Source: Roseimaritima ulvae (lineage in GTDB: Bacteria; Planctomycetota; Planctomycetia; Pirellulales; Pirellulaceae). From it: DNA of 64,000 nucleotides. Below the pieces are notes generated by a model, which saw only the letters and a list, made by a program, of their open reading frames with translations, had not been told where the DNA came from and made no database searches. Within the stretch, counting starts at the first letter, position 1. Each line of letters starts with the position of its first letter. The DNA is taken from contig NZ_CP042914.1 of the NCBI RefSeq assembly GCF_008065135.1, positions 7,111,404-7,175,403 on the forward strand, written 5' to 3'. Of the stretch, positions 17,467 through 43,879 are shown piece after piece. Made by a program: the position numbers and the translations under genes.

Positions 17467-17555
17467 AAAAGAGAAACCCGTCACTTATAAACCACACCTC
17501 CCCGGCCGCCGGCGAATACGTTTATCGCCGCCCTCCCCTGACCTAAACCAACCTT

Positions 17556-18851: not shown

Positions 18852-18852
18852 T

Positions 18853-18947: not shown

Positions 18948-18961
18948 TTGCGACCTTCATC

Positions 18962-23885: not shown

Positions 23886-24647
23886 CTATGCTATTTTGCT
23901 CGGCCGCTGTGCGAAGTTGTCCAACCATGGCGCCGCATAGTAGTGGTATTGATCCTCAGGCAAATCCAATTTTACCGGGTTGTCAGCGATATACTTCCGA
24001 AACTTCACCAGCTCCTCCACGTCACGAACAATCCGATCATACGATTCGTGCTGCCAAAACCGAGGTCTGGTGTGCGGGGGTCCGTGAGGTTGCAATTCCA
24101 GCGGTTGTTGGTCCAGCCAAGTTCCAATCTGACGAGAGGAAAACTTCTTGATCGACCCCAGCAAGTCCTCCAATTGCCAGTCTTCGTGGGGTAACACCAG
24201 AGCATGCACGTGGTTGGGCATGACCACAAAATCACCCAAAGCCAGTCGGTTGCCATCAAAGAAATGCAACGCTTCCACCACCTGCTGCAATGGCGGCGTG
24301 TGCCGGAGTACACAACTGCCGTGACACAAATCCAGTTCTTCGTGCAACATGACCGCTTGCTCTCTCTCGAAAGCTCGACGGACGCCCTCAGGGATTGAGG
24401 CGTACGCTTTATCGAAAGCTTCAGGGTTGCTTTCTTTCAGCTCCACCGAGAGCCCATTTGCCTGCCACCAGCGTTGTCGGACATCAAGCCACTCGGCGAG
24501 TACCGACTTGGGAATCGAATCCGCTTGTCGAAAGGTAATGAAATAGGTGGCGCCGGGTTGGCGCCAATGTGGAAGATTACGCACGTAAACTCGCACCTGT
24601 CCATCCGGATCAAATGGCTTGAACAACGGAGCAGCGCGTTGAGTCAT
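23886..24647 (-). CDS. REP-associated tyrosine transposase (RAYT, IS200-like Y1)
   Basis: A single-strand DNA transposase of the Y1/HUH class, 253 residues. Visible signs are the N-terminal YVRNLPHWRQPGATYFITF, the HUH motif in VMPNHVHALV (about residue 144) and the nucleophile tyrosine region FRKYIADNPVK (about residue 217) followed by YHYYAAPWL. In studied RAYTs the protein binds the GTAG head and hairpin of REP DNA and cuts it. Here REP arrays lie directly on both sides. I start at ATG 24647; the open frame upstream runs through REP DNA. It appears complete. Confidence 0.92.
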   Translation of the reverse strand: MTQRAAPLFKPFDPDGQVRVYVRNLPHWRQPGATYFITFRQADSIPKSVLAEWLDVRQRWWQANGLSVELKESNPEAFDKAYASIPEGVRRAFEREQAVMLHEELDLCHGSCVLRHTPPLQQVVEALHFFDGNRLALGDFVVMPNHVHALVLPHEDWQLEDLLGSIKKFSSRQIGTWLDQQPLELQPHGPPHTRPRFWQHESYDRIVRDVEELVKFRKYIADNPVKLDLPEDQYHYYAAPWLDNFAQRPSKIA

Positions 24648-24698
24648 CGTGATCGCAATCAAACGAGCAGCGTGATTCACCGAGTTGGAACGATTCAG

Positions 24699-24876
24699 GT
24701 AGCCTGACTCTGCCAGAGGGGCAGAATCGATTATAACCCTACTCGACTCAGAGAGTCGAGCTACGCCGTAGCCTGACTCTCCGAGTCGGGTAGCTCCGCC
24801 AGCCAAAACACCCGACTCGGAGAGTCAGGCTACGTGTCGAACTACAAACCATCCCCGACTCAGAGAGTCAGGCTAC
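24699..24876. repeat. REP cluster upstream of the RAYT gene (five units)
   Basis: Units: a diverged one starting GTAGCCTGACTC at 24699; 24742-24764 (a perfect CTCGACTC / GAGTCGAG palindrome with a CTAC end); 24768-24790 direct; 24811-24833 inverted; 24854-24876 inverted. The direct and inverted pair at 24768-24833 has the same arrangement as the last pair of the other cluster, including the CAGCCAAAACA spacer. Confidence 0.88.
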
Positions 24877-24883: not shown

Positions 24884-26554
24884 TTAGCGTCTGTTGCCAA
24901 ATCGCTGGTCGGCGAAGGCGCTGTCGATCGCCGCGAAACGGTCTTGGGTGTTGCGATTTCCTTGATTCCGTTGGTCGCGATTATCCTGTTCCCGTCCTTG
25001 ATTGCGATTGCGGTTGCGCTGGGTGTCCTGATCGATCTGGTTCGTATCATCCGCCGTGGCGACGGTGAATTCGGAGGCCACGCTGGCGGCGATCGCGCTG
25101 CCGACTTCCTGACCGACCGTGTCATCGAAATTGAAATGGATGCCCAAGTACACACGACTGCGACCGTTCTCGGCCATCGCTTCGCTGAAGGACTCAAACG
25201 TCCGCACCGCGTCGTCCAGTTCCAGCCCATAGGCTTCCTGTAATTCCGGATCCTCCAACAGCCCTTGCAGTTCGTCCGACGACAGTTCGAAAGCGATATC
25301 GTCGGTGCCGTAGAATTCCTGGAGTGTGGTGAACAGCGCGCCGCCGAAGGTAGCATGCCCGGAGATGTAGGTGGGGAACTGGGGTGTGAAACCGGTCAGG
25401 TCCTCGCCGTTGGGTGCGCCCAGGGCGACCCAATCCGCGTCCGCTTCGGTCAACGCATTGCCGTCGGTGTCACCGGCCTGAATCGCCGTGACGGGACGCC
25501 AGAATTCTTCGGTGAACTTGGTATCCCAAGCCGTGATGGCTGCGTCGGCCATGGCCACGGAAGCTTGCGCGAACAGCGCCGCGTTCTCTTCCATACTATT
25601 GCCCTGCTGCTCGGCGATCTGAATCAGCACGTCGTTATACAGTGCCAAGGGCGTCCCCAAACCTTCGCGATCATAAGCCCAGAACAGCCCAGCTTCGGTT
25701 TGATCCTCAGTGCGGGTTTCGCTATCGAGCGCCCCCAACTCGATCACCTCGTTGTAGGCTTCGGCGTATTCTTCGCTGCTCAAATCGGGTGGCGATTCAG
25801 GCGAAAACTCGTCGGTTGAGCCGATGGCAAAGGTATCCACTTCCCCCCAAGCGGGTCCCCACGCCGGGACGTCGGGGTTGAGCGGATCAACTTGAAAATA
25901 CCCCACTTCGTCGGTGTACTTGTACTCACCGATCACGTCGGAGCCATCGTTGGCACGGATGGCCAGGATCGTGCTGCCGATCTCGCTGCCCACCGTCAAA
26001 CTGGCCTCGCTATCGCGATTCGCTCCGGCACTGGCAAGGCTCGCTTGCAGGAAAGCGTCCAGCGTTTCCTGTTGCTCCGGATACAAACCACTGAGCACCG
26101 TGTAGGCTGCCTGAGCAGCCACGATTTCGGCGGACAGCTCGGTCCTGTCGCTCACATTCAGATCGTACTCGTAGAACGTATCCGCATCGGATCCGCTGGT
26201 TGCAATCCCCACGGCATCATAGATAGCCAGGTTCAGCATGGCCATCGAGCGGGAAGCGTAGCCGGGGGTTTGCAACGTCCCCTCGGCGTCGGCCAGGACT
26301 TCTCCAAACAGATCATTCCAGGCCAGCACCACATCAGTGCTTTCCGATGACACGTCATCGCTGGCGGACGAATCGCTTTGCGATTGCTGGCCCGTTCGAT
26401 CGGCGTTCGACGTACTAAACGCGGAAACTTCGCTGGCGACCGAATCGTCTTGGGAAACCAGGTCGTTACTCAAGAAATCAGCGGCTAACAACCGACGCAT
26501 TTCCAGCGATTCGGTCCGTAGCCGACGCCGCGTCTGGGAACGTTTTCGAGACAT
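24884..26554 (-). CDS. Vanadium-dependent haloperoxidase / PAP2-type protein, exported
   Basis: A 556-residue protein of the vanadium haloperoxidase and acid phosphatase superfamily. All three vanadate/phosphate-binding motifs are visible: KFTEEFWRP (K-x6-RP, about residue 346), YISGHAT (about 398) and SRVYLGIHFNFD (S-R-x5-H-x3-D, about 463). The N-terminus has an Arg-rich stretch followed by LEMRRLLAAD, the leader seen on many planctomycete surface proteins. Such enzymes oxidise halides with peroxide; whether this one is a haloperoxidase or a phosphatase is not decided. ATG 26554 has GAGG upstream. It lies 160 bp after a sulfatase in the same direction. The tail is Asn/Gln/Arg rich. Confidence 0.88.
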   Translation of the reverse strand: MSRKRSQTRRRLRTESLEMRRLLAADFLSNDLVSQDDSVASEVSAFSTSNADRTGQQSQSDSSASDDVSSESTDVVLAWNDLFGEVLADAEGTLQTPGYASRSMAMLNLAIYDAVGIATSGSDADTFYEYDLNVSDRTELSAEIVAAQAAYTVLSGLYPEQQETLDAFLQASLASAGANRDSEASLTVGSEIGSTILAIRANDGSDVIGEYKYTDEVGYFQVDPLNPDVPAWGPAWGEVDTFAIGSTDEFSPESPPDLSSEEYAEAYNEVIELGALDSETRTEDQTEAGLFWAYDREGLGTPLALYNDVLIQIAEQQGNSMEENAALFAQASVAMADAAITAWDTKFTEEFWRPVTAIQAGDTDGNALTEADADWVALGAPNGEDLTGFTPQFPTYISGHATFGGALFTTLQEFYGTDDIAFELSSDELQGLLEDPELQEAYGLELDDAVRTFESFSEAMAENGRSRVYLGIHFNFDDTVGQEVGSAIAASVASEFTVATADDTNQIDQDTQRNRNRNQGREQDNRDQRNQGNRNTQDRFAAIDSAFADQRFGNRR

Positions 26555-26714
26555 GTTGACCTCTTCGTCGGGGGAGATGGAAAGCAGAAGAGCCGACTGC
26601 CCACGGCCGAGCCGATAGATCATGGCTCACTACTAACGGAAGGTTCCGCCGCAAGAATGTCACGGTACCTTCACAGCATCTCGATGGTTTCCGCCAACGT
26701 TTCTCAACCTGTCT

Positions 26715-28085
26715 CTAGTAATTCAGCGTCCCTCCTCGGCTCGGTTTTTGCCGTTCGTTCTTCCACCAATGGTCGGGACCTTCGGTTTCGATTTCCTGCC
26801 AGACTTCAAACAGCCGCTTTTTCATCTCGGCCGTTTTCTCCGGCATCGTCTCGGCCAGATCTTGTTCTTCCTTCCAGTCTTTCTGAATTTGATAAAGTTG
26901 AAACTCGGTCAGCGTGTCATTGCCGACCAGTTTCCAATCGCCGATCCGCAGCGCCACGCGATCGCCCGGTGGCGAAACATGCGTCCGCCAGAACAGCGGG
27001 ACTTCGCGTGCGACAGGCTGGCCGGCAAATGCGGGCAGCATGCTGACACCATCGATAGTGCGGTCGTCGGGAAGTGGAATACCGGTGATATCCAATACGG
27101 TGGCAAAAATGTCGGTGCCCACAACGGGGACATCGCTAACCGTTCCGGGGCGGATGTGGCCCGGCCAGCGGGCAACTCCAGGCACGCGGATACCGCCCTC
27201 GTGGTCGCTGCGTTTATTGCCTCGCAACCCGCCCGACGAACCGCCAAAACGAGGAACCGGCCCATTGTCCGATGTAAAAATCAGCAGTGTGTTGTCGGCC
27301 ACGCCAGCTTCGTCCAGCGCCCCCATCAGCTCTCCGAGCGCGTGATCCAGCTGGGTGATGTTCCCCATGTAGGTGCTGTTCTCGTGCCCATCATAGAGCT
27401 CGGCGAATTGAGGACCGGTGGCAATCGGAGAGTGGGGTTCGTGACACCAGACCGACAGCGCGAAGGGTTTGGACTCATCCCGCACCTCGCTGAGCCACCG
27501 CGCCGCTTCGGCGGCCACCAAGGGCGCGGAATAGCCTTGCAGTTCACCGACCGGCTGACCGTTGCGGACAAAGTTGCGGGGGTTGCGATGGCTCGGCTCC
27601 GCGTTATTGTGCGTCGCCATCCAGTAGTCGTAGCCATGATCGCCAGGTTGCGGATATTGGTCCGTGTTAAATTGCGACTTGGAATTGAGATGCCACTTGC
27701 CCACATGGCAGGTTTCGTAGCCGATCGATTTCAACAGCTTCGGATAGGTGATTTCACTGGCTCGCAGGTGAGCTTCATGGTTACCCGAGAGGTGACGATA
27801 GACGCCGTTGCGATACGGAGTCCGCCCGGTCAGGATTGCCGACCGTGAGGGCGAACACACGCCACACGCCGAATAACACTGCGTGAACTTCACGCCCTGC
27901 GACGCCAGCTTGTCGAGGTTTGGGGTTTGAATCAGAGGATGTCCGTAGGTGGCGGAATCGCCCCAGCCCATATCGTCGGCCAAGAAGACCACGATGTTGG
28001 GCTTTTTCGATGCGTCGGCTTCGGCGGCTGGCAACGCAGCAAGTGAAAGCAGTACCCCTAGCAATAGGCAAACGAGGGTGCGCAT
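26715..28085 (-). CDS. Type I sulfatase, exported
   Basis: A 456-residue sulfatase with a signal peptide (1-23), VVFLADDMGWGDSATYGHP metal-binding start, the intact formylglycine site CSPSR with AILTGR, and FTSDNGPV. It is most like the arylsulfatase A / N-acetylgalactosamine-6-sulfatase class. It is the last sulfatase of the minus-strand degradation locus, 35 bp after the beta-helix gene, so likely co-transcribed. Substrate unknown; acting on the same sulfated glycan as its neighbours is an inference. Confidence 0.93.
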   Translation of the reverse strand: MRTLVCLLLGVLLSLAALPAAEADASKKPNIVVFLADDMGWGDSATYGHPLIQTPNLDKLASQGVKFTQCYSACGVCSPSRSAILTGRTPYRNGVYRHLSGNHEAHLRASEITYPKLLKSIGYETCHVGKWHLNSKSQFNTDQYPQPGDHGYDYWMATHNNAEPSHRNPRNFVRNGQPVGELQGYSAPLVAAEAARWLSEVRDESKPFALSVWCHEPHSPIATGPQFAELYDGHENSTYMGNITQLDHALGELMGALDEAGVADNTLLIFTSDNGPVPRFGGSSGGLRGNKRSDHEGGIRVPGVARWPGHIRPGTVSDVPVVGTDIFATVLDITGIPLPDDRTIDGVSMLPAFAGQPVAREVPLFWRTHVSPPGDRVALRIGDWKLVGNDTLTEFQLYQIQKDWKEEQDLAETMPEKTAEMKKRLFEVWQEIETEGPDHWWKNERQKPSRGGTLNY

Positions 28086-28120
28086 GTTTCGGTTCCCTTG
28101 GAGTTTCAGAAGTCGGCGTT

Positions 28121-30313
28121 TTATTGGGTCTCGAGCCGTGTTTGCTCGGCGGTCGCATCATCCACCAAACCGACCTTGGATAAATCCAAGGGCACAAAGC
28201 CCAATTGCAATGCCGGCGAATCGGGGCGTAGTCGAAAGTCGCCGTTTTGGGGATCCACAAACCTTGGATCGACCGCCAAGCTGTGCGCGTCGACTCCGGC
28301 TCGTTGCTGCTGCTCGAGCAGTTGTTCGCCGAGTTGCGGATTGGCGGCACAGAAGTAGAGATTGTGATCGGTGTCGGCCTGGCGGCTGAGCGCCAGTTGT
28401 CTGCCACGACGATCCTCCGTCGCGCGTCCCCGTCCGGGAGGCAATTCATCGATGAACGTGCAGGTGTCGGAGGAACTGTAGAAGATGTTTCGCTTGATCG
28501 CAGCCCCCGTCATCGGTCCTTCCCGCACGGCCAGATAATAGCCCCGCGGCGGCGCGATGATGTCGGCGACGATATTGTTTTCGCAGTGATTGTTCAGTTT
28601 CAAAATGATCCCCTGCGAGGTGCACTTATAAATCAAATTTTCCGCGATGGTCGTATCCATTTGCCCGCCATCGGTACGAATCGCCGCTTGCATGATCATC
28701 GGAGCCACCAGATGGTGGATGTAATTGCGACGGATTTTATTTCCCGCGCCGGCCCCGCGGATGTAGATCGCGTTGCCGTCGCCCAGCAACTCCATTGCAT
28801 GTTGGATTTCGTTGTATTCGACCAGGTTGTCGTGGGTATGCAGGTAGGGACGCACATCCTCCAATTGCGGATTCCGCGGCAACCGAGCGATCTCGTGCCG
28901 CCGAATCGTTCGGCCCAGTTCCCTGCCCTGCCGTGTGAAAAAATCCGTCATGCAACCGGAAAGAATGATGGCGGTATAGGGCGTGTGATGCACCAGATTG
29001 TTGGCGATACGATTCTCACCGCTTTGCCAGACCATGATGCCGGGTGAGTGCGAATAGATTTGCCCGATGTGATGTATGTGGTTGTTGTAGACCAAGTTGT
29101 CCCCGTTGACGTCTTTTGTTCCCGGCCCATATCCGCACAGCAGAATTCCGGCGCCCCCCATGTGTTCGATCACATTGCCGGACAACGTATTGTGTTGTCC
29201 GTGCAGATCGACGCGGATCGCCCCACCGCCGCTGTGCGCGAACCGACACTGCTCCACGCGGCAGTTTTCGGTTCCTCGCAGACGCAGCAGAGCATTCGCT
29301 TTGTCATACATGTCCCAGTCGTGCTGCAAGCCGGCATCATTGGCGGCGATTTGGTAGCGTTCGCCATGCATGAACGTCAGGCCTCGGAAACACAGATTCC
29401 GGACCGGCGTGTCCTGGGGGCCTTGCTTGTCGACCTGGCCTTCGACGCGAATCAATTCGGTCAGCGTGGGAGCGAACACGGGCGAGCCGTTCCGCGGCCA
29501 CCGATACAGTTTGCCTTGCTGCGTATTCAGCACCCACTCGCCCGGTTGATCAAGTCCCTCCAGCGTGTTTTCGACCCAGCAGGAGTCCGTGGTCTTGAGA
29601 AAATGCAGGAGATTCATCGCATAGGTGGCATCGATCGCAGTGTGCGCGATCTGCTGCGTTTCGTCGACCGATGCCAGGGGCAGGACATTCACGATCCAGG
29701 CGTGATGCGGACGCACGACGATTTCCACATCCTCTACATTGGCCCAATCCTTCAACGTGCCGGGCGGACAGTGCAGTCGGCTACGACTGCCGCCCCTAAG
29801 CGGAATAAAACCGGCCGAGCGGGCACGCGGCAGCAGACCTTGTTCGTCGTACAGAGTTAAAAAGCGATCCGAAACGTCCGCCACCAACAGCTTGCCGCGA
29901 GCGACCGCCGGCAAGCCGGGCAGGTCTTCGCTTACTTTTTGCCAGCCGCCGATCTCTCGGCCGGAACTCAGCACCGGAGTTTCACCGGGATAGGCGGCGT
30001 AGGTGATCGTGGTCTCACCGACGCCGCCATCGGCGAGAGAGAACACTAGGGTGTTGTGCAGTTGGTAACGTCCCCCGCGAAGCAGCACCACGATGTCGGT
30101 TGATTTGGACTGCTTCAAATCTCGCACGGCATCTCGAGCCCGCTGCAGCGTGGCGAAGGGACCGTCAGTGCGCCCGGGGTTCGCGGCGGCCAAAGTTCCC
30201 GACCAATCGTCGCGACCATCGGGGGCCACGAAGAAATCCGCCTGCGGTTCAGCCGCACCGCTCAGACGGACAGCCAGCACGACGCACAGCAACACCAACC
30301 CGTGAAACTTCAT
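28121..30313 (-). CDS. Exported right-handed beta-helix protein, GH141-like
   Basis: A 730-residue protein with a signal peptide (1-20). It starts in the manner of GH141/GH120-like parallel beta-helix glycosidases: FFVAPDGRDDWSGTL, GPFATLQRARDAVRDL, VVLLRGGRYQL, then ITYAAYPGETPVLSSG. Many short N-x-I/V turns follow (NTLSGNVIEHMGGAGI, ENRIANNLVHHT, NKIRRNYIHHL), the rungs of the helix. GH141 contains alpha-L-fucosidases, which would suit this locus, but a lyase or another helix family cannot be excluded. GAGGAG lies ten bases before the ATG. 35-bp gaps on both sides support one operon with the sulfatases. Confidence 0.82.
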   Translation of the reverse strand: MKFHGLVLLCVVLAVRLSGAAEPQADFFVAPDGRDDWSGTLAAANPGRTDGPFATLQRARDAVRDLKQSKSTDIVVLLRGGRYQLHNTLVFSLADGGVGETTITYAAYPGETPVLSSGREIGGWQKVSEDLPGLPAVARGKLLVADVSDRFLTLYDEQGLLPRARSAGFIPLRGGSRSRLHCPPGTLKDWANVEDVEIVVRPHHAWIVNVLPLASVDETQQIAHTAIDATYAMNLLHFLKTTDSCWVENTLEGLDQPGEWVLNTQQGKLYRWPRNGSPVFAPTLTELIRVEGQVDKQGPQDTPVRNLCFRGLTFMHGERYQIAANDAGLQHDWDMYDKANALLRLRGTENCRVEQCRFAHSGGGAIRVDLHGQHNTLSGNVIEHMGGAGILLCGYGPGTKDVNGDNLVYNNHIHHIGQIYSHSPGIMVWQSGENRIANNLVHHTPYTAIILSGCMTDFFTRQGRELGRTIRRHEIARLPRNPQLEDVRPYLHTHDNLVEYNEIQHAMELLGDGNAIYIRGAGAGNKIRRNYIHHLVAPMIMQAAIRTDGGQMDTTIAENLIYKCTSQGIILKLNNHCENNIVADIIAPPRGYYLAVREGPMTGAAIKRNIFYSSSDTCTFIDELPPGRGRATEDRRGRQLALSRQADTDHNLYFCAANPQLGEQLLEQQQRAGVDAHSLAVDPRFVDPQNGDFRLRPDSPALQLGFVPLDLSKVGLVDDATAEQTRLETQ

Positions 30314-30348
30314 CGCGCACTTCTCCTCGATAGTTGAATACGGCAGCG

Positions 30349-31887
30349 TTAGCCCTTGCCGGCGTCCTTGCGACGTTGTTTGGGCTGCCCGCTTGCCCGA
30401 TTCGCAACGCTCTTTTCAGCGATCGGAACGTGGCGATCGAACAGCGTCCCGTAGCGTTGGTAGTTGTTGTAGTCGACGGCCTGTTGTTTCCACTTCGCCA
30501 GTTCTTGATCGTAGCGCTTGCGCATGGCATCGAGCGTCGTGGCGTGGTCCGGGTTATTGGCCAGGTTCTCCAGCTCCAACGGATCATGCAATGTGTCGAA
30601 CAACTCTTCGGCCGGATCCATGGTGTCATCGCCGTACCACCAATAGGTGTATTTATATTGCCGGGTCAAACAAGTCAGACTGTGCGTTGGCAGCGGACCA
30701 AACACGTTGATAAACGACAACTGCTCGTGGCCTCCCTGATCCGCTTGCTGCAACAGCCCCGTCAAGCTTTTGCCGTCCATGTTGGCGGGAATTGGCAGGC
30801 CCGCCAGATCCAGGATCGTGGGAGCAAAATCGATGTTGCCGGTCAGCCGATCACAGCGAATCTGTTTGCCGTTCAAGGGGCTGCGAGGATCGTAAATCAT
30901 CAGCGGCACGCGTGAGGATTCTTCCATCGGCAGGACTTTGGAACCATAACCATGCGCACCGCAGATATAGCCGTTATCGCTGGTGTAGATTACGACCGTA
31001 TTGTCCGCGACGCCTTGCTTGTTCAACTCCTCGCGAATCATCCCCAGCGCCACGTCGATGCCATACACCTGCTGATGGTACTTGGCCATTTCGCCGTCGT
31101 AGTCGCTATCGTATTTCCACTCGGTGAAACGCGGGTATTGCCGTCCTTGTTTGCTTTGCGGGGCCAGATGTTCTGCGAATGCTCGCCCGAAGTTGGCAGG
31201 CTTGGTGAATTGTTTTCCCCGGTACACGGAATTAAAGCGGGGATCGGGAATCGCCGGCTTGTGCGGAGCTTTGAAACTGATCGACAGGCAGAACGGTTTC
31301 TGCTGCTTGCTGGCCTGGCGAATTACATCTTGCCCAAACGCGCCGTAGGACAAGGTCGAATGGGGGTACTGAGCAGCGTACTTCTGCATCGACTTGTTTC
31401 TCGCCGTAGCGTATTCGGTTTGCCCCGGACCGCCGCCCCAAAAATCAAAGTCGTCTTCGCACAGTCCTTTACCTTCGACCACGATGCCGAACTTGCCGGC
31501 AAACGCCGTCAGATACCCGGCTTCACGCAGCAACACCGGATAAGATTTCTGCCACACTTCGGGTCGCATATTTCCATGACTGAAATTGCAACCCGTTTTG
31601 TATTCGTACATGCCCGTAAACACATTGGCTCGGCTGGCCATACAGATGGCCGTGGTGTTGTAGTGTTTGTCAAACACCACGCCATCGCGAGCCAGTTGAT
31701 CCATATTGGGCGTCTGCACGTCCGGGTTTCCATAACACCCGACCGAATAGGTGTTTTGGTCGTCGGCGAACAGGAACACGATATTTGGCGGCGAGTCGTG
31801 TTCTTCAGCCGCGAAGCTCGTGGAAACCAGATTCGCCTGACACAGCAACCAAGCGGCTGTCAGCAGCAAGAGTTTGTGGTGATGCAT
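30349..31887 (-). CDS. Type I sulfatase, CMASR active site
   Basis: A 512-residue exported sulfatase with a signal peptide (1-26), [15 protein letters not shown] metal-binding start, formylglycine site C-M-A-S-R (C-x-A-x-R form) with VFTGMYEY, and [10 protein letters not shown]. The length and DDQNTYS start recall iduronate-2-sulfatase/choline-sulfatase-like subfamilies, but the substrate is not known. I start at ATG 31887, where the signal peptide begins; an upstream start at 32037 would overlap the hydrolase gene. It is 71 bp after the GH117-like gene on the same strand. Confidence 0.92.
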
Positions 31888-31958
31888 GATGGACGGGTTG
31901 TATGAACAAGGGGTTGGGACTGGAGTGAAACCGTTTCGGAACGTTCGCGACGCCCCGT

Positions 31959-33005
31959 TTAGGGGTCGAGAGGCGCAACGTCGAAACGTTGGATGAAGGG
32001 CAAAAATCCCTGGCGTCTTCCGATGTGCACGCCCCACTGGATCCGTTGACCGTTGTTGGAGTCCGTAAAAGCTTCGGGACGAAAAGCGCCGGCCGCATGA
32101 GGCACGTTTTGCACAGCATGGGTTTTCGAAAAGTGAATGCCATCTTCAGCGTATACGATCGAACGCACCCACTCTTTGGGACCGGTTGTGCCAATCATAG
32201 CCGCCACGCCGTCGCCCTGGGGCCAGACCAAAACTTCGTGATTGCCCGGGATCACCGGATTGCCTTTGTATCTGACGTACGGCCCCTGAGGCTGATCGGC
32301 GATCGCCAGCCCCAACTTGGTTTGCCCCGGGCCTTTCCCCAGCTGACGTCCTTTGTAATAGAACCAGTACTTTCCGTCTCGCACGATCAGACAGGCGTCG
32401 TCGACCAAGTGGCTATCAAAATCCTCACGGTTGTCGCTGTTGGTTAACGCGGGATTGGAATCCAGACGCTGCCAGGGTCCGGCCGGCGAATCCGACACGG
32501 CGATCCCGATTTTGGAATCCGGATTAAAGCCTTTGCGAAACTTGCGTGAGGTGCCGGTATAGAACAACCAGTAGCGTCCCTGGGCGACCAGCATGTTGGG
32601 CGTAAACACGCTGGCCCCTTCCCAGCTGCCCGGCTGACCTTTTCCCAGCGCCATGCCTTGCTCGGTCCAGTCACGGCCGTCGGGCGAAGTGGCATACCAC
32701 ACGGTGGCGTCGTAGCCTGGCGAAATGGTGCCCTTGGAATACCAGACATAATAAAGTTCATCGACTTTGATAATGTCACTGGGGTCTCGGCGCATCACGC
32801 CCTGCTGGGCCCCGATACCATCCACGTCCGAGTAGGTCACCTTCAAGGTTTTAACATCAACCTCAGAGGCCGATCCCGAATCGTCCGCCAACACGAAGAC
32901 AACACCGGGTGGTGGTTCCGCGGCCACGGCGGATGCCCAGCCGATCGTAATCAGTGTCGAGGTCAGGGCGACATGCAACGGGCGGCAAGCGGGTTTTGAA
33001 CTCAT
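31959..33005 (-). CDS. Exported five-bladed beta-propeller glycosidase, GH117/GH43-like
   Basis: A 348-residue protein with a signal peptide (about 1-28). It shows the repeating W/Y-Y-A-x-S-x-D-G blades of five-bladed propeller glycosidases: [74 protein letters not shown]-type [12 protein letters not shown] and [11 protein letters not shown]. The RRDPS and VDDAC aspartates are candidate catalytic residues. The pattern is closest to GH117 (3,6-anhydro-L-galactosidases and related), with GH43 as alternative. ATG 33005 overlaps the previous sulfatase's stop (ATGA), so the two are co-translated. Confidence 0.8.
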
Positions 33006-34462
33006 TGGGGCTTCCTCTGTCGCTTGTTCTTTTGCTTCTTGGGGGTGGTTTTCGATTCGCTGGAAAGCGTGCGACGCGACGCGTCGAAGCTGCGGGCATT
33101 TGCACCGAAACGATCGTGGTCCCCCACGTCTTGTTTCGCCCATTCCGCCAGCCTCATCAATTCCGCGACCGTTTCCGGGTGCTGGGACGAAACGTCGGTG
33201 GTTTCGCCGATATCGGCTTGCAGATCGTACAGCTGCGGCGTCTGAATGCGGACGGCATCGGCCTTGTCGACATGCCGGCGCCATTTCGATCCGATACCGC
33301 TGCCAACCGGTTCGGTATGCGGCAACATCAATTTCCAACGCCCCGAGCGAACGGCGCGAAGGCAATCGTGCTGGTAATAGAAAAAGCTGCGTTGCAGCGT
33401 GTCGGCACTGCCGTGCATCCATGATGAAATGTCGACCCCATCGATGACGCGGTCCGAGGGAGCGGCACCGCCCGACAGCGCGGCCAACGTGGGCATCAGG
33501 TCAATCGTTGCCGTCACCTCGTGGCATTCCGCTGCGGCCGGGATTCGCCCCGGGGCACGCATCACACAAGGCACCCGCAAACCGCCTTCCCAACAGGACG
33601 TTTTGGCGCCCCGCAAAGGCGCCGCATGGCCGCCATGCTCGCCGCGCAGCCGCCACGGTCCGTTGTCGCTGGTGAAGATGATGTAGGTGTTGTCGTCCAA
33701 CCCCAATTGCTGCACCTTGTCCAGCACCCGCCCGACGTGGAAGTCAATTTCTTCGATCACGTCGCCGTACAGGCCGCCGGCCGACTTGCCGCGAAACGCC
33801 TGCGAAGCGGCCAGTTTGGTGTGCGGCATGGTATGGGCCAGATACACAAAAAACGGCGTCTGCTTGTTGCGTTCGATAAACGCGAGCGCCTCGTCGGTGT
33901 AGCGTTTGGTCAGCGTCGACATGTCGACGTCCGTTTCCAACAGCTCCGAATTGCGAATCAGATTGACCGACTGGTCATTGCTGCCGGGCGTACCGAAGTA
34001 GTAGTCGAATCCCTGATGCTGCGGTAATAACTCCGGCTTGTAGCGAACCTGGCGGTGTCCCGCCAAATCCCATTTTCCAATCGCCGCCGTCGCGTAGCCT
34101 TGCGGCTTGAGAACCTCGGCGATCGTGACCTCACTGCGATGCAATTCCGGATGAATCGAATCCGGATCGGCGTGCCGAGCCACACGCAAAGGGTAACAGC
34201 CGGTCAGTAGAGCCGCCCGCGAAGGTCCGCAGACGGTTTGCGCATAAAAATTGGTGAACCGCATGCCCTCCTGGGCCAGCTGGTCGATTCGCGGCGTACG
34301 AATCTCGGGCGAACCGAAACACCCCAGGTCCTGATAGCCTTGATCATCGGTAAAGATGATGATGAAGTTGGGACGGGCGGCGACGCCGGCGGAGGCGAAC
34401 AGCCAAGTCCAACCGACCGATAATGCCGCCCAGGCAATGACCCAGCGTTTGAATAAACTCAT
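33002..34462 (-). CDS. Type I sulfatase, exported
   Basis: A 486-residue sulfatase: signal peptide (1-29), IFTDDQGYQDLGCFG start, formylglycine site CGPSR with AALLTG, the KWDLAGH region and FTSDNGPW. The C-terminus is a basic tail (TTPKKQKNKRQRK). It overlaps both neighbours by four bases, at ATGA junctions, so it is part of a tightly coupled run of three sulfatases plus the propeller hydrolase. Confidence 0.94.
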   Translation of the reverse strand: MSLFKRWVIAWAALSVGWTWLFASAGVAARPNFIIIFTDDQGYQDLGCFGSPEIRTPRIDQLAQEGMRFTNFYAQTVCGPSRAALLTGCYPLRVARHADPDSIHPELHRSEVTIAEVLKPQGYATAAIGKWDLAGHRQVRYKPELLPQHQGFDYYFGTPGSNDQSVNLIRNSELLETDVDMSTLTKRYTDEALAFIERNKQTPFFVYLAHTMPHTKLAASQAFRGKSAGGLYGDVIEEIDFHVGRVLDKVQQLGLDDNTYIIFTSDNGPWRLRGEHGGHAAPLRGAKTSCWEGGLRVPCVMRAPGRIPAAAECHEVTATIDLMPTLAALSGGAAPSDRVIDGVDISSWMHGSADTLQRSFFYYQHDCLRAVRSGRWKLMLPHTEPVGSGIGSKWRRHVDKADAVRIQTPQLYDLQADIGETTDVSSQHPETVAELMRLAEWAKQDVGDHDRFGANARSFDASRRTLSSESKTTPKKQKNKRQRKPQ

Positions 34463-35994
34463 GGTGTTAGTCCAGTCGATTGGTTGGTCTGCCGCTTACG
34501 GCGGTTGGGTTTGTTATTGGCTCGGCCGTTTTTTTTGAAATCCGGATGTCTCTTCAACCGCTCCGCCCGGATGGCCTCTCGGGTGCTCGCATCCACCGAC
34601 GCCCAGTCTTTGCCGTGACTGATGATCGGGGCATTTGTAACCACGGATCCGGTTGGTCGTTGGCCACTGCCCCGCCGCATGAACTCTCCCAGCTCGCCGC
34701 GTGTATCCTCCGCCATGCGAACCATCTGTTGCACGATCTGGGGATGGGCCGCGGCCACGTCCTGCGATTCAGCAACATCCGCTTGCAGGTTGTAGAGCAC
34801 GGGTGATTGCCGATTGGTAAAAGCGCTGTTCTTGTCCCAGAAGGGCAACTGTTTGCGAGTTCGGGGCAGGTGCAATTTCCAATCGCCGTAACGAACCGCT
34901 TGCAGGTTCTCGCAGTTGTAATAGAAGAAGGGCTGATTCTCCGCTCGCGCCAACTCACCGCCGGTCAGCAGTGGTACCAGGCTGACCCCGTCGTACACTC
35001 GATCGGTGGGCAACGTCCCGCCGCTGACTTCCGTCAATGTCGGGAACACGTCCATGGCCACCACCGGCGTATCGGACTCGCGGCCCTGCTTGATCATCGC
35101 GGGCCAATGCAAGATGAAAGGCACACGATGTCCGCCTTCAAAACTGACATACTTAGTGCCGCGATAGGGCGCGGCGTATTGCGGTTTCACCGGGCCGTTA
35201 TCGGACGTGAAGATAATGATCGTGTTGTCCGCGATGCCGGTCTCTCGCAGCGTCTGGACGATTTCCCCGACGCCCCAATCCAGTTCCTGCAGCACGTCGC
35301 CACGGACACCGTCCTGGGAGGAACCCACGAAGTCTTTGCCCGCTTTGTAAGGCGTATGCGGATAGTTGTGAGCGAAATACAGAAAAAACGGTTGCTCGCC
35401 GTGTTGCTTGATAATCTGGACCGCTCGGTCGGTATATCGACGAGTCAACTGAGCCAAAGGAGTCCGGTCTTCGATTTTGTTTTCGCCATCAAAAAACTCG
35501 GCTGAGTGCGCCGCATTGTTGGGCATCCCGTAGTAGTGCTCAAAGCCATGGCGGAAAGGATGAAACTCCGGCTCTTTGCCCAGATGCCATTTGCCGATCA
35601 TGAAGGTCTGATAGTTCTGTTTCTGGAACTGTTCGGCCAACGTAATTTCATCGGGATGCAAGCCCAGAAACCAGTGTTCATCGCGAATCGGGTTGATGCC
35701 CATGTACAGCCCGCAGCGCTGTGGATAGGCCCCGGTCAGGAACGCCGCTCGCGAGGGCGAACAGATCGATGCCGCGGTGTGAAAATCCGTAAACTTGATG
35801 CCCTCAGCCGCCAGAGCGTCGATGTGGGGTGTGTCGACCTTGCTGGCTCCATAGCAACTGACATCCGCATACCCCAAGTCATCGGTTAAGAAGAAGATGA
35901 CGTTGGGACGCTGCGGGAGGTCCGCAAAGCCGAAGCGCGGACTCAACACCCAGCACAGCACGCTCAACACAATCAGACAACCGGTGGCTCTCAT
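34459..35994 (-). CDS. Type I sulfatase, exported
   Basis: A 511-residue sulfatase: signal peptide (1-24), FLTDDLGYADVSCYG start, CSPSR formylglycine site with AAFLTGAYPQR, KWHLG and FTSDNGPVKP. It ends in a basic Lys/Arg/Asn-rich tail like its neighbour, suggesting recent common ancestry within the cluster (inference). Four-base overlaps with the sulfatases on both sides. Confidence 0.94.
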   Translation of the reverse strand: MRATGCLIVLSVLCWVLSPRFGFADLPQRPNVIFFLTDDLGYADVSCYGASKVDTPHIDALAAEGIKFTDFHTAASICSPSRAAFLTGAYPQRCGLYMGINPIRDEHWFLGLHPDEITLAEQFQKQNYQTFMIGKWHLGKEPEFHPFRHGFEHYYGMPNNAAHSAEFFDGENKIEDRTPLAQLTRRYTDRAVQIIKQHGEQPFFLYFAHNYPHTPYKAGKDFVGSSQDGVRGDVLQELDWGVGEIVQTLRETGIADNTIIIFTSDNGPVKPQYAAPYRGTKYVSFEGGHRVPFILHWPAMIKQGRESDTPVVAMDVFPTLTEVSGGTLPTDRVYDGVSLVPLLTGGELARAENQPFFYYNCENLQAVRYGDWKLHLPRTRKQLPFWDKNSAFTNRQSPVLYNLQADVAESQDVAAAHPQIVQQMVRMAEDTRGELGEFMRRGSGQRPTGSVVTNAPIISHGKDWASVDASTREAIRAERLKRHPDFKKNGRANNKPNRRKRQTNQSTGLTP

Positions 35995-37628
35995 TGCTTG
36001 TTCCTGTTCTGGGGACGATTGCGATTTCGCTGTTCCGGGGGCACGTTCTGAGGCCGATACGTTTGCAAAAGTTGCTGCATCTGTTTGACGACCGCGGGAT
36101 ACTGGTTGTAAACGTTCTGGGTTTGATACATGTCATTTTCCAGATCGTACAGCTGCGCGGGTGGCGCCCCGGGTTTGAGCTTGCCGTTTTTCAGGTCGCT
36201 GTTGACGCTGCCAACAAAGGCCGCCGCTGGCGGTCCGCCCCAAGCATGGTGCTGAGGCTTGGAGCCGCCGAAGCCGCCACTGCCCCGAGCGCCGATGTAC
36301 ATCCACTTGCCTTTGCGAATGGCCAGATGAGAGGGTTTGTGAGCCGCCAGCACGAGTTCCTCACGCAGGGCCGCCGTTGGTTCACCGAGCAGCGCTGGCA
36401 GCATATTAATACTGTCCGATTCCGATGCATCGCCGCTGCCCTGCCCCGTCAACGCCTTGAAGGTGGCCAACATATCGACGTTGCACAGCAGCTGATGGGA
36501 CTTGGTTCCGGCCGGAATTTTTCCGGGCCAGCGAGCGATAAAGGGGATCCGGTGGCCGCCTTCCCAAGCGCCGAACTTGAAGCCCAACAGATCGCCGTTG
36601 ATGCGATGCCCCGCCCTGACCGCGTTGCGTCCGCCCAGATTCAGCATGCCGCCGTTGTCGCTGGTAAAGATGACCAACGTGTTGTCGCTCAAGCCGTGTT
36701 CCTCAAGACACCCGGTCACTTCGCCGACCATCCAGTCCAGCTCTTGGATAAAGTCGCCGTACAGGGCCGCGTCGCTGGTGCCCTGGAATCGTTTGCCGGG
36801 CGTAAAGGGATGGTGGATATGGGTGGTCGCCATATAGAGAAAGAAGGGCTGCTGTTTGTTCGCCGTGATCCAATCCACCGCTTTCTCCGCCAACACGGTG
36901 CCCACCGTATAGTCGTTGTAACGCTGGTGTGCCCGCACGGCCCCTTTGAACATATTGGCGGTCCGCTGCGAGGCCTCCGGTGGGATAGGAGTAATCGGCG
37001 TCGCGTCTTTATGCCGCCCCCTGCCGAGATAAACCAAGGGATCGTTGGGGTCGCCATCCACCACCCGATCGTTCTCGACAAACACATACGGCGGAGCACT
37101 GTTGACGACCGGCAAGCCAAAGTAATAGTCAAACCCTAGGTCCTGAGGGCCGGGGCGCAGCGGTTCCTGCCAATCGTTTTTGCCCTCCCCAAATCCAAGA
37201 TGCCATTTGCCCAAAGCCGCCGTGGCGTAGCCGCTGTCCTTAAACACGTCCGCGATGGTCTGCTGATCGGGATCGATCAGCAACCCGGAAGTCACCGGCG
37301 CGGGCCCCCAAATCCCCTTGCCCCCGTGGGCGCGGAAAGGATATTCGCCCGTCAACAAAGCGTAGCGTGAAGGCGTGCATACCGCAGACGCCGAATGGGC
37401 ATCGGAAAACATCCGCCCCTGCTTGGCCAGACGGTCGATGTTGGGTGTCTGCACTTTGCTGGCCCCATAACACCCCAAGTCGCCATAGCCCAGGTCGTCG
37501 GCAAAAATGAACACCACGTTGGGAGACGGAGCGTTCTCATCCGCCGCTTGCTCCGCACGCCCGACGGTGCCCACGCCGAACAGCCACAGCAGCGACACGG
37601 CACCGCGAATAAAATCGGATCGGCTCAT
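35991..37628 (-). CDS. Type I sulfatase, exported
   Basis: A 545-residue sulfatase: hydrophobic signal peptide (about 6-26), IFADDLGYGDLGCYG start, formylglycine site CTPSR with YALLTGEYPFR, KWHLGFG and FTSDNGGML. The tail is Asn/Arg/Gln rich. ATG 37628 matches the signal peptide; an open frame reaches 37697 but adds unrelated residues. First of the three overlapping sulfatases, 105 bp after the RbsD/FucU-like gene. Confidence 0.93.
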   Translation of the reverse strand: MSRSDFIRGAVSLLWLFGVGTVGRAEQAADENAPSPNVVFIFADDLGYGDLGCYGASKVQTPNIDRLAKQGRMFSDAHSASAVCTPSRYALLTGEYPFRAHGGKGIWGPAPVTSGLLIDPDQQTIADVFKDSGYATAALGKWHLGFGEGKNDWQEPLRPGPQDLGFDYYFGLPVVNSAPPYVFVENDRVVDGDPNDPLVYLGRGRHKDATPITPIPPEASQRTANMFKGAVRAHQRYNDYTVGTVLAEKAVDWITANKQQPFFLYMATTHIHHPFTPGKRFQGTSDAALYGDFIQELDWMVGEVTGCLEEHGLSDNTLVIFTSDNGGMLNLGGRNAVRAGHRINGDLLGFKFGAWEGGHRIPFIARWPGKIPAGTKSHQLLCNVDMLATFKALTGQGSGDASESDSINMLPALLGEPTAALREELVLAAHKPSHLAIRKGKWMYIGARGSGGFGGSKPQHHAWGGPPAAAFVGSVNSDLKNGKLKPGAPPAQLYDLENDMYQTQNVYNQYPAVVKQMQQLLQTYRPQNVPPEQRNRNRPQNRNKQ

Positions 37629-37733
37629 TACATTCTCAATGGCAAGTGTGGCGACGGTTTTGGTGATGGTTTTGGTGATGCCTGCTGCGGTGGCCATGGC
37701 CGTCGCTGAAGGCAGCGGCAGGACATGGTCCAG

Positions 37734-38285
37734 CTACTGGTCGGTCGCCGGTGCTCGTTCGATGGCCGCCCGCAGTTGCTCCTCAGCCGCGTCGGACCAA
37801 TAGCCGCAGTCCAAGCGAATAAACACCGAAGTGTAGGGCAGCGTGAGATCGGTCTTCAGCACCAGGACCTGAAACGTCTGCCCCGCTTCATCCAGCATGC
37901 TGATGATCTCGCCGTGCGGCAAAGACGTCACGTCCTGATCCTGCAGTGCCTTCTCCAGGCCCGCCCGATAATCGCTAATCCCCTTGGCATATTGTTCGGG
38001 GACGTGCGTCAGTTCGGCGTCCGTAAACACTTTGCCACGAACGTGCGATTGCTCCGCGACGAGCGCCAACACCTCGCGAACTACCTCCAACTGTTTCTCG
38101 CCGGTATATACCGTCTTAATCCCGGCCGCGGTCTGAGCGGGGTACGCCGAGTCGGCAATGACGATCCAATTGCGGTGCCCCAGCAGCGGCAATTGACTTT
38201 TCAGCGTTTGTTGCCAGCCAGGCGTTTCCGCCGCCAGCGACGAACAACCGACGAGGGCGAGCAACAGGATCCCAATTCTTTTCAT
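37734..38285 (-). CDS. Exported RbsD/FucU-like protein
   Basis: A 183-residue protein whose core, LLGHRNWIVIADSAYPAQ, matches the GH-x3-IVIADA-x2-P signature of the RbsD/FucU sugar mutarotase fold. Classical members are about 140-residue cytosolic enzymes that speed conversion of sugar anomers (ribose, fucose). This one has a signal sequence, with LALVGC at residues 9-14 that could be a lipobox, so it would act outside the cytoplasm, an unusual place. It is the promoter-proximal gene of the sulfatase locus. Catalytic competence is unproven. ATG 38285 is chosen over 38300. Confidence 0.7.
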   Translation of the reverse strand: MKRIGILLLALVGCSSLAAETPGWQQTLKSQLPLLGHRNWIVIADSAYPAQTAAGIKTVYTGEKQLEVVREVLALVAEQSHVRGKVFTDAELTHVPEQYAKGISDYRAGLEKALQDQDVTSLPHGEIISMLDEAGQTFQVLVLKTDLTLPYTSVFIRLDCGYWSDAAEEQLRAAIERAPATDQ

Positions 38286-38494
38286 ATCACAGCCTCCCAA
38301 GGGATAAGCGAAACCCCAACATTCTAGTCGCTTTCCGACCCTGCAAGACGACGAAATGCCCTACGGAACTAAGGATTTGCGACTCTTACGATGAACAACT
38401 CAGCGCGGCTTTTACCCCCTCCACCAAAGCTCCAACATATTGGACGCTGGACAGATTGCGGGCTAAACTCTGCAAAACATATAGATACATAGAT

Positions 38495-40513
38495 ATGGAA
38501 CACGGCAGCTTGAACACGGCAGCACGGCACCCTCCTGCGGGAGACTCACACAGCACGAGCGGGAAACAAAACCGGATGGACGACGCTCCCGCTTGCGACT
38601 TCCACAAGCTCTTCGATCGTTCCCCGGCCGGCATTTATGTCGTCCAGGCGGAGCGGATTCGGTATGCCAACCCCGTGCTGGGGCAGCTGCTGGTCCGCGA
38701 TTGCGCGGCGCTGGCCGACGCATCGCTGCTGAGCTTTATCCACCCCGCTGACCGGCCAGACGTGGAACAACAGCGACGGCAACAACTGCAGAAATCCGCG
38801 AGCTGCAGGTTGCGGGCGCGTATCGTGCGGGGCGACGGCAGCTTCAAGGCGGTGGAGCTGATGGAAGCACTGGTCGACGATGACGCACTCACCGGCCAAC
38901 CAGACGGCCCGGTCCTGGTGGGAGTCATGATGGATGGGACGGATCACCACCAAGCGGACCTGAAGATCCAAGAACGGCTGAACTTTGAACGCTTGCTGGC
39001 CGATCTGTCGGCCGGTTTCGTCAACCTGCCGTGCGAACAAATCGCCAGCCGGATCGATACCAGTTTGAAATTGCTGGTGGAGTTTCTAGGAAACGATCGC
39101 AGTACCTTTGTGGAGTTCGGGAGCGACGAAGACCAGGTGCAGATCTCGCATTCCTACGCCGTACCGGGTTGCCCGCCCTTCCCTATCGGTCCCTTCGCCG
39201 TCGCCAAATTGCCTTGGTTCATCAACGAGTTCCGCAGCGGCAACAGCGTGTTCATGCGCAACATCCCCGAAGACCTGCCTGACTCGGCGATCGAAGAACG
39301 CGAGCGTTGCCTGCGGGAAGGCATCCAGTCCAACGTCACCGTGCCGCTGAGGGCCGGCGGCGAACTGCTGGGCGGACTGACCTTTGCATTCATCCGCAAA
39401 CGATGCGACTGGTCTCGCGAAGTCCTCTCGCGTCTGAGTTTGATCGGAGAGGTGTTTGCGCATGCCTTGTTGCGCCGCCGCAATGAATACCTGCTGCGAA
39501 AAACGATGGAGGAGAATCTACGCCTGCGGCAGCAATTGGAACAAGACAATCTGTACCTGCGTGAACAGGTGGTGCTGAAACACAGTCACGGACGCATCAT
39601 CGGACAAAGCGACGCGATCACTCAAGTGCTGGCGGATATCGAACGGGTGGCCACGACCGATGCCCCGGTGTTGCTGAGTGGTGAGACCGGCACGGGCAAG
39701 GAGTTGTTGGCTCAGACGATCCACGAGCTGAGCCTCCGCAAGGGGCGGCCGATGATCGTGGTCAATTGCGCATCGCTGCCAGCTACGCTGATCGAAAGCG
39801 AATTGTTTGGGCGAGCCGCCGGGGCCTACACCGGCGCCGTATCGGCTCAAACCGGACGTTTTGAATTGGCCGACGGGTCCACGCTGTTTCTTGACGAGAT
39901 CGGAGAATTTCCGCTTGAGTTGCAGGCCAAACTGCTGCGTGTCTTACAAGACGGCCGCTTCGAACGCTTGGGAACCGCACAAACCATCTCGGTCGATGTC
40001 CGCATCATCGCCGCCACCAACCGCGATCTGGAAGCGGCTACTCGCGATAACCTCTTCCGGCCGGACCTGTACCACCGCTTAAACGTGTTCCCCATCCAGG
40101 TACCGCCGCTGCGCGAACGACGCGACGATATCCCTCTGCTGACCTGGGCCTTCGTCGAAGCCTTGGGCAAGCGGATGGGCAAGTCCATCAAGTGCATTCC
40201 TCGCAAGGCCATGCAGCAGTTACAGGATTACGATTGGCCGGGCAATATCCGCGAATTGAGTAATGCCGTGGAGCGTGCCATGATCCTGGCCGACGGCGAC
40301 ACCCTGCACATCGAACCACCGGCCGGCTCGCATTCCGGCCCCACCGCGAACAAAACACTCAAGCAAGTCGAGCGAGAGCAGATCCTGCACGTGCTGGAAG
40401 AAACCGGCTGGCGAATCCGCGGCAAAGGCGGCGCGGCGGAACGTCTGGACATCAAACCCACCACGCTGGAAGCCCGCATGGCACGGCAAGGGATCCAACG
40501 CCCAGGCCGCTGA
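38495..40513 (+). CDS. Sigma-54-type transcriptional activator with PAS, GAF, AAA+ and Fis domains
   Basis: A 672-residue regulator. A PAS-like region (about 40-140; [21 protein letters not shown]) is followed by a GAF domain (about 165-320), a coiled linker, the AAA+ domain (about 365-600) and a C-terminal Fis-type helix-turn-helix (about 625-668). The ATPase has Walker A GETGTGKE, the sigma-54 contact loop as GAYTGA (usual form GAFTGA) and Walker [10 protein letters not shown]. It should activate sigma-54 promoters on a signal sensed by PAS/GAF. It is divergent from the sulfatase locus, so it may control it (inference). The start is uncertain: ATG 38495, TTG 38456 or ATG 38576. Confidence 0.9.
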
Positions 40514-43845: not shown

Positions 43846-43879
43846 AGATCCGTACTAGAAGAATTACCTCATACGGCTC
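43846..43879 (-). ncRNA. Group II intron domain V
   Basis: A 34-nt hairpin starting GAGCCGTAT and ending TACGGATCT, with a two-base bulge region, the catalytic heart of the ribozyme. The AGC triad is present. The pair normally formed by G and U in the lower stem is G opposite A here. Confidence 0.75.

Follow-up and report, generated by a model that had tools for sequence, protein, structure and literature searches.

Which sulfated glycan is dismantled by a compact run of sulfatase and glycosidase-like genes in the planctomycete Roseimaritima ulvae, and how might its terminal sugars be released? How bacteria remove the last sugars of fucoidan is poorly known, and passages of one study describe fucoidan turnover as very slow and the polymer as a candidate carbon sink (PMC12786026). 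For the 64,000-nucleotide stretch analysed here (the window), an initial annotation had proposed a single coupled sulfated-glycan locus directed at a sulfated fucan or a sulfated galactan. Our analysis supports a single locus, which we read, with a probability of roughly 0.7, as an operon-like cluster for the extracytosolic breakdown of sulfated alpha-L-fucan.

Organization of the locus and export of its products

Nine genes lie head to tail on the minus strand, in the place and order first annotated. From upstream to downstream they encode an exported RbsD/FucU-like protein and putative sugar mutarotase (37734..38285); the S1 sulfatases S_H (35991..37628, alternative start 37697), S_G (34459..35994) and S_F (33002..34462); a GH117-like five-bladed propeller, a putative exo-hydrolase whose target would be alpha-L-fucose or a sugar related to it (31959..33005); the S1 sulfatase S_D (30349..31887); a GH141-like parallel beta-helix, a putative endo-alpha-L-fucanase (28121..30313); the S1 sulfatase S_B (26715..28085); and a vanadium-haloperoxidase-like protein of doubtful membership (24884..26623). 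The 4-base overlaps noted earlier are present at three junctions (S_H/S_G, S_G/S_F and S_F/propeller), the remaining gaps measure, in the same direction, 105 (36 with the longer S_H start), 71, 35, 35 and 91 bases, and the genes may share a single transcript. Start codons of the propeller (33005), S_D (31887) and FucU-like (38285) genes were picked by eye from the leader.

All five sulfatases match Sulfatase PF00884 far above the Pfam cut-off and carry a C-x-[P/A]-x-R motif, which reads CTPSR in S_H, CSPSR in S_G and S_B, CGPSR in S_F and CMASR in S_D, the last being of the CxAxR type with 6hr5 as its best PDB chain. The claim that all parts carry export signals holds for eight of the nine proteins, in which a simple hydropathy scan finds a hydrophobic N-terminal segment (best 11-residue mean 1.7-3.3). 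For the haloperoxidase-like protein (0.9 in the same scan) it is true in a looser sense only, because this protein has the planctomycete extracellular motif PF07595 (Pfam, 26.5 bits, cut-off 25.5) instead of such a segment.

The haloperoxidase-like gene also scores below the Pfam cut-offs for VCPO_N/PAP2 (26.4 of 29.3 and 24.2 of 27.2 bits). Among the fetched loci it has a single best-hit relative, at a distance of about 7 kb from a GH117 gene of the agar type; we rejected the haloperoxidase-like gene as a part of the system, and it is probably a bystander that is not conserved in such loci. At the other end of the run, a divergent sigma-54-type activator with a GAF domain (38456..40513, plus strand; Sigma54_activat 228 bits, GAF, HTH_8) is a possible regulator of the locus. 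It was not the best hit of any ORF in the other fetched loci. A sigma-54 promoter upstream of the operon was rejected, the gap before the FucU-like gene holding no -24/-12-like pattern; such patterns number 14 in the window against 15.6 expected.

The beta-helix and propeller proteins

The GH141-like character proposed for the helix finds support at several levels. The protein has a Pfam Beta_helix domain and matches PDB 9rx2, a 'parallel beta-helix repeat protein' whose code is not named in the literature searched, over its full length (E 1.4e-290); BT_1002 (GH141) matches the helix family profile at E 3.2e-28. The Pfam GH141_M score of the window helix, however, is 20.5 bits, below the cut-off of 27. 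Residues W333, D337, D512, N525, N530, R546 and D548 are invariant in 11/11 aligned helix proteins, and G513 nearly so. The catalytic D523 of BT_1002 would correspond to D512 on the assumption that the chain numbering runs 5 higher, as judged by eye from a second, weak stretch of alignment (i-Evalue 2.1), and the catalytic D564 lies outside the alignment, with D548 of the RxD motif as its candidate equivalent. Compared by published motifs rather than by sequences, the helix shares with the GH141 endo-fucanases Wf141_1, _2 and _4 (branch GH141*6) the beta-helix family and the W-xxx-D, DG, NxxxxN and RxD motifs. It departs from the published signatures (xHQxWxxxD, DG...NxxxxN, xRxDx) in having QH in place of HQ and 11 residues, as against 24, between DG and the first Asn, two points that count against a fucan. 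Judged from these motifs, it keeps most of the published signature of fucoidan-active GH141 endo-fucanases.

The assignment of the propeller as GH117-like is supported by its fold and its catalytic Asp/Asp/His. It has a Glyco_hydro_43-type propeller domain (Pfam) and a phmmer match to BpGH117 (1.1e-50); the top 18 Foldseek matches of its AF2 model (mean pLDDT 86.1) are all GH117, with E-values no worse than 1.4e-24 (3.8e-11 for the hit that follows), and VIA gives Z 38.7-40.6 to GH117 (rmsd 2.1-4.6 over 287-304 residues; next Z 24.4). Equivalents of BpGH117 D90, D245 and H302 are kept in 21/21 genes of its clade, window included, and that of E303 in 18/21, all four catalytic positions being present in the window protein. 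The five blades and the D90/D245/H302 equivalents are shared with the exo-3,6-anhydro-L-galactosidases BpGH117, BuGH117B, SdNABH and 3p2n, at 35-36% identity in structure alignments; unlike these, the window propeller lacks the SxAxxR/helix-swap part and has an altered pocket, a shorter loop and another gene context.

The SxAxxR motif, which lies in a swapped N-terminal helix, is given as the GH117 signature in passages of two papers (PMC8152962, PMC11595537). Motif and helix are absent from the window propeller; the first 110 residues of 20/21 clade genes do not contain the motif, the match in L124 lying upstream of the likely start, and it is present in 5/5 agar-type planctomycete GH117 genes. 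Among the GH117 substrate-pocket residues W128, Q180 and H244 (passages of PMC8152962), Q180 has become T and H244 D in 21/21 clade genes, against Q and H in 6/6 agar-type rows and in three further agar-type genes (L037, L102 and the partial L042) that had been excluded from the set and were checked afterwards. The pocket Trp (near 128; 127 in our count) is lost in all 21 and is W in the six agar-type rows and the three further genes; in the clade the position reads G in one alignment and a gap in another because the clade loop is shorter.

In the propeller tree the six agar-type rows, BpGH117 included, split off with 100/100 support; forks within the fucan-locus group are weak, L066 forms a long branch and the bootstrap had not settled. 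The 29-row set also excluded short copies of included genes, cut G006 fragments and matches of less than 100 bits or 230 columns, and it contains neither an interrupted second CA13 copy (L106) nor the numerous paralogues at 35-45% identity, so the sample consists of best hits. The GH117 proteins Zg3597 and Zg3615, outside the tree, have the same fold at 31-32% identity (Z 38.7 and 40.6). The clade may correspond to a published, little-characterised GH117 clade. As far as its residues can tell, the propeller is probably not an agar enzyme, and the clade seems to be a GH117 fold re-tuned for another sugar, perhaps fucose.

The exported FucU-like protein and DUF6786

The claim of an exported FucU-like protein stands, with the RbsD/FucU fold joined to a lipobox (LVGC, by eye) and a hydrophobic N-terminus. 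RbsD_FucU PF05025 scores 26.9 bits (Pfam cut-off 25); for the AF2 model (mean pLDDT 83.6), 21/21 Foldseek PDB matches with E<=1e-3 are RbsD, FucU or 2ob5, and VIA Z is 14.4-14.9 for RbsD-type structures, 12.4-13.0 for FucU, 11.3 for 2ob5 and 4.6 for the next. The RbsD active site we take to be His20, Asp28, His98, Tyr120 and Asn122 (B. subtilis numbering). In 5/5 aligned FucU-like proteins His37, Asp45 and His124, which an alignment pairs with the three RbsD His/Asp positions, and Tyr151 (assigned by eye) are invariant, and one active-site Asn, its position matched by eye, has become Ser/Thr. RbsD/FucU proteins are cytosolic; unlike these mutarotases, with which it shares fold and active-site His/Asp/His/Tyr, the window protein is exported and 183 aa long, besides the Asn replacement. 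By eye, 11 of the 12 proteins in the family seem to be exported, and exported relatives recur in planctomycetes; the genome has a second FucU, without leader, at C1:3851067. In a literature search for an exported fucose mutarotase, none of the matches listed named a fucose mutarotase.

The exported protein could instead be a sugar binder, or unrelated to the pathway, and head the operon by chance, an account to which we give considerable weight, if less than even odds. It would fit the Ser/Thr replacement and the nine of 12 family loci without a fucan-locus propeller, the two genes sharing a locus in only three, which also counts against a fucan. It fits less well with the four invariant active-site residues and with the position of the gene, which heads a sulfatase/glycosidase run in both the window and G006 and directly follows the sulfatase-propeller ORF of G567. 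If sugar mutarotases do act outside the cytosol, one could test whether the exchange of anomers there is a limiting factor for sugar uptake.

The exported family DUF6786 is found in 8/17 propeller loci, in one of them fused to the propeller, and never together with a FucU-like protein in the loci checked; the two may replace one another as propeller partners. Searches for a mutarotase fold in DUF6786 gave no PDB profile match better than E 0.68, no Pfam family besides DUF6786 at E<=10 when two proteins were scanned alone and no hhalign signal against one aldose epimerase, and the literature search found no mention of the family.

Substrate and comparison with known systems

Of the two substrates first proposed, fucan fits better. 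The GH117-like fold, cited at the time for a galactan, is by itself no such pointer, because the propeller lacks the signature motif, its pocket is changed and its close relatives lie in sulfatase- and fucose-type loci. We base the fucan reading on the helix signature and on gene neighbourhoods: helix relatives in Planctomycetota, Bacteroidota and Pontiellaceae often stand beside GH29, GH95, GH97, acetylesterases and sulfatases, and propeller relatives have an S1 sulfatase within 10.5 kb in 15/17 loci (agar-type GH117, 1/5; Fisher two-sided p 0.009) and GH29 or GH95 within that distance in 6/17. In one propeller locus, G187, an L-fucose isomerase that exceeds two NCBIfam cut-offs is encoded along with an aldehyde dehydrogenase and a class II aldolase. 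Across 246 genomes of the order, the helix (E<=1e-60) and a close propeller occur in nine each and together in five (Fisher p 2e-6; 3e-5 without the own genome); in another collection, 6/11 helix-bearing genomes have a propeller at >=60% identity, and sulfatase and propeller are fused as one ORF in CA13 and G567. The own genome, moreover, holds a microcompartment locus with class II aldolase, aldehyde dehydrogenase, lactate/malate dehydrogenase and acetate kinase.

Other observations count against a fucan. The sole GH29 of the genome lies far from the locus and GH95 is absent, so the locus has no known exo-fucosidase; the Akkermansiaceae helix locus L011 showed no such fucose-type neighbours; 5/11 helix-bearing genomes of the other collection lack a propeller at that identity; and the L-fucose isomerase occurs in one propeller locus only. 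GH95 is also found in an agar-type GH117 locus (G014), and passages of one study place GH29 in an agar PUL with GH117 (PMC5849685).

On a sulfated fucan, the helix would cut the chain as an endo-fucanase, the five S1 sulfatases would take off sulfates, presumably at different positions, and the propeller would then use its conserved Asp/Asp/His to release the alpha-L-fucose newly left at the chain end, or else an L-galacto sugar in modified form. The exported FucU-like protein would speed anomer interconversion of the freed sugar ahead of uptake, and free L-fucose would enter the microcompartment pathway, whose genes lie at another site in the genome. Quite tentatively, and with doubts that outweigh our confidence, we propose that the clade represents a new family of exo-alpha-L-fucosidases (or of fucose-sulfate-tolerant enzymes) that uses the agar GH117 fold but has dropped the swapped dimer helix and re-tuned the pocket. 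Its exported partner, FucU-like here and DUF6786 elsewhere, would handle anomers or products.

It is unlikely that the same enzymes act at other linkages of another fucose-bearing sulfated glycan, of diatom, echinoderm or mucin type. Fucose would be the shared element, Verrucomicrobiota have been tied to sulfated glycans with fucose from diatom blooms (passages of PMC8857213), and the nearest PDB chains of S_H are a putative secreted sulfatase, a GalNAc-6-O-sulfatase and S1_15 (two chains so named); the GH141 signature and acetylesterase neighbours, however, fit brown-algal fucoidan better. Least probable, and improbable in its own right, is a red-algal galactan (agar/porphyran) with the propeller as an ordinary GH117 3,6-anhydro-L-galactosidase and the sulfatases acting on galactose sulfates: among solved structures, those of agar GH117 enzymes come nearest to the propeller, and one agar PUL combines GH117, GH29 and sulfatases (passages of PMC5849685), but the motif and helix are missing, the three pocket residues differ throughout the clade, a propeller locus encodes L-fucose isomerase, and the own genome has a single GH16, at 0.96 Mb (GH50 and GH86 outside this search).

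A fucose-active GH117-type propeller would be an additional exo-fucosidase fold and would caution against taking a GH117 annotation as evidence that agar is used; Pontiella strains, for instance, did not grow on agar despite having GH117 genes (passages of PMC7356697). Passages from two papers on GH117 and fucoidan contain no link between GH117 and fucan. The initial statement that no locus with this set has been described stands for the exact gene set, of which a literature search that did not take in the key planctomycete fucoidan study found no description; it does not stand for the type, since clusters with GH141, GH29/GH95 and S1 sulfatases have been described (passages of PMC12786026), and in Rhodopirellula europaea 6C, as in strain CA13, helix, sulfatases and propeller share a locus. 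The fucoidan-degradation clusters of Wenyingzhuangia, Lentimonas and Planctomycetota likewise combine a GH141-type helix with S1 sulfatases and handle fucose in a microcompartment (passages of PMC12786026, PMC8857213). Unlike them, the window locus is without GH29/GH95 (GH107, GH168, GH174 and GH187 outside the search), and its additional parts are the GH117-like propeller and the FucU-like protein with its export signal. The known part is the locus type, a fucoidan-degradation cluster, and the new part the putative activities of the propeller clade, possibly an exo-alpha-L-fucosidase, and of its exported FucU-like and DUF6786 partners.

Gene order, export and surroundings

All nine minus-strand genes proposed in the initial annotation (24884-38285) are present in the order that it gave: the RbsD/FucU-like gene, the S1 sulfatases S_H, S_G and S_F, the GH117-like propeller, the sulfatase S_D, the GH141-like beta-helix, the sulfatase S_B and a haloperoxidase-like gene. 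The 4-base overlaps were located at three junctions (S_H/S_G, S_G/S_F and S_F/propeller) and, since no gap between the FucU-like gene and S_B exceeds 105 bases, this part of the row is likely to be a single transcript. All five sulfatases carry a formylglycine-type motif. Across the genome, a single contig of 8.2 Mb in which the window occupies C1:7111404-7175403, the sulfatase family PF00884 matches 102 times, some of the matches being pieces of one gene. Export signals had been claimed for every part of the cluster, and a hydrophobic N-terminal stretch was indeed found in eight of the nine proteins, the haloperoxidase-like protein being the one that lacks it.

An IS200-like (Y1_Tnp) gene (23886-24806), an ISL3-family transposase (40564-41832) and a reverse-transcriptase gene (43869-45362) lie on the flanks of the cluster and may bear on its mobility. 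Two further sulfatases at the start of the window (801-2441, plus strand; 2511-3881, minus strand) are separate from the cluster, and planctomycete PSCyt/PSD1-type proteins adjoin DUF1501 proteins two successive times at 13659-23735 (the second PSD1-type protein, 18626-22216, was read by eye).

The propeller and its genomic neighbours

Sequence, Foldseek and VIA-align all place GH117 nearest to the propeller (31959..33005), with other structures well separated, in agreement with its original designation. We call its relatives the fucan-locus clade and compared them with agar-type GH117 in BpGH117 numbering, taking pocket and catalytic residues from PMC8152962. The comparison comprised 29 rows: 22 from the clade (21 distinct genes, window included, one being present twice), six of agar type (five planctomycete genes and BpGH117 itself) and one divergent row, L066, which matches neither pattern. 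Positions 90, 165, 180, 244, 245 and 302 read D, T, T, D, D, H in all 22 clade rows and D, T, Q, H, D, H in all six agar-type rows; three further agar-type genes, initially left out, show the agar pattern at the positions covered. The agar-type Trp-Asp at 127-128 is missing from the clade because the loop is shorter, Gly-Tyr aligning there in one alignment and a gap in another, and at position 303 the clade has Glu in 18 of its 21 genes and Ala in three. The SxAxxR signature, tied in published work to the swapped dimer through which the +1 site is completed, was not found in the clade, the single regular-expression match falling upstream of the likely start. With D/D/H retained, pocket residues changed and SxAxxR missing, the clade therefore keeps the catalytic machine but not the pocket or the dimer part.

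To annotate neighbours in 17 clade loci, leaving aside the window and the G006 locus, in which the contig end truncates the propeller, we built a reference set from Pfam-named proteins and ran BLAST against it; because the loci differ in length, the counts are lower bounds. An S1 sulfatase lies within 10.5 kb of the propeller in 15 of the 17 (the exceptions being the second gene of genome G014, L061, and one short Sumerlaeota contig) and within that range of one of five agar-type GH117 genes. GH29 or GH95 lies within the same distance in 6/17 loci, and slightly farther out in genomes G187 and G241. G187 also encodes L-fucose isomerase in the same gene run as the propeller (965 bits against a cut-off of 775, and 923 against 850), the only propeller locus in which it was found.

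DUF6786 (PF20583), a family of unknown function, is a recurrent and unexplained neighbour of fucan-locus propellers (among others L126:5655-7919, L053:10712-11977 and L124:16740-17987). It adjoins the propeller or lies within 6 kb in eight of the 17 clade loci, one of which, L126, encodes a DUF6786-propeller fusion of 755 residues; a ninth, L058, retains a remnant, and among three sister loci two carry the family, one of them only in part. A leader was seen by eye in the proteins read. By tblastn, DUF6786 was not found in the window or in the fetched G006 and G567 loci. That it might be a counterpart of the FucU-like protein is only an idea, because no hint of a mutarotase fold emerged from sequence comparison.

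The exported FucU-like protein

The gene heading the cluster (37734..38285) passes the PF05025 cut-off, as its RbsD/FucU-like label implied. Foldseek matches to its predicted structure at E<=1e-3 are solely of RbsD/FucU type, and VIA Z scores are 11.3-14.9 to such structures and 4.6 to the next. Surveys of overlapping samples (4/60, 4/246 and 8/392 genomes) gave 12 family members, window counted, of which 11 bear a leader, lipobox or membrane anchor as judged by eye, some starts being uncertain. The second FucU in the genome of the window has no leader. This predicted fold can fairly be read as that of an exported mutarotase. A FucU-like gene shares a locus with sulfatases and a propeller of the clade or its sister group in only three cases, the window, G006 and G567, and we rate its tie to fucan as moderate.

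The sole leaderless member, in G014, neighbours an aldose 1-epimerase, an aldo/keto reductase, an alcohol dehydrogenase and an agar-type GH117 (L007:8355-13665), with GH95 nearby; this group is perhaps a galactan counterpart.

The helix and the sulfated-fucan reading

The helix (28121..30313) matches the solved chain 9rx2 along its full length (E 1.4e-290), a PDB code of which no mention was found in the literature searched. The helix family profile picks up the GH141 enzyme BT_1002 (E 3.2e-28), and the Pfam GH141 insertion domain scores below cut-off. Helix and propeller co-occur above chance among 246 genomes of the order. Cases in which they are close to each other are G006 (~22 bases, L062), strain CA13 (~5 kb), G212 and Rhodopirellula europaea 6C (~11 kb) and G014 (~16 kb). 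In CA13, S_H and the propeller form one frame of 1040 residues, and in G567 a sulfatase and a sister-group propeller form one of 837. As evidence against this association, a propeller at >=60% identity was not found in five of the 11 other helix genomes (Echinicola has one at 45% identity, ~30 kb from the helix on the same contig), and the Akkermansiaceae helix locus L011 has no such neighbour in view.

Elsewhere, the genome of the window yielded a single GH29 (1.73 Mb, adjoining a sulfatase) and a single GH16 (0.96 Mb); no GH95 was found. Because known exo-fucosidases are so scarce there, the propeller makes a natural candidate for the exo-fucosidase step. At 0.94 Mb lies a microcompartment locus (aldolase, aldehyde dehydrogenase, lactate/malate dehydrogenase, acetate kinase), which on the basis of PMC8857213 is probably of the planctomycete fucose/rhamnose kind. 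We put the probability that the cluster is a sulfated-fucan locus at roughly 0.7. Its chief interest lies in the clade to which the propeller belongs and in the exported partner proteins, all of which are amenable to assay now.

PMC12786026, a 2025 paper, describes endo-fucanase activity for four GH141 proteins from one fucoidan cluster and signatures for one GH141 branch. Residues W333, D337, D512, N525, N530, R546 and D548, invariant in an alignment of 11 helix proteins, fit its W-xxx-D, DG, NxxxxN and RxD, whereas the HQ of the branch is QH in the helix and the DG-to-N spacing is 11 residues rather than 24. We regard the helix as a probable endo-fucanase from a sister branch. The type of locus is already known, and it is the combination of genes that is new.
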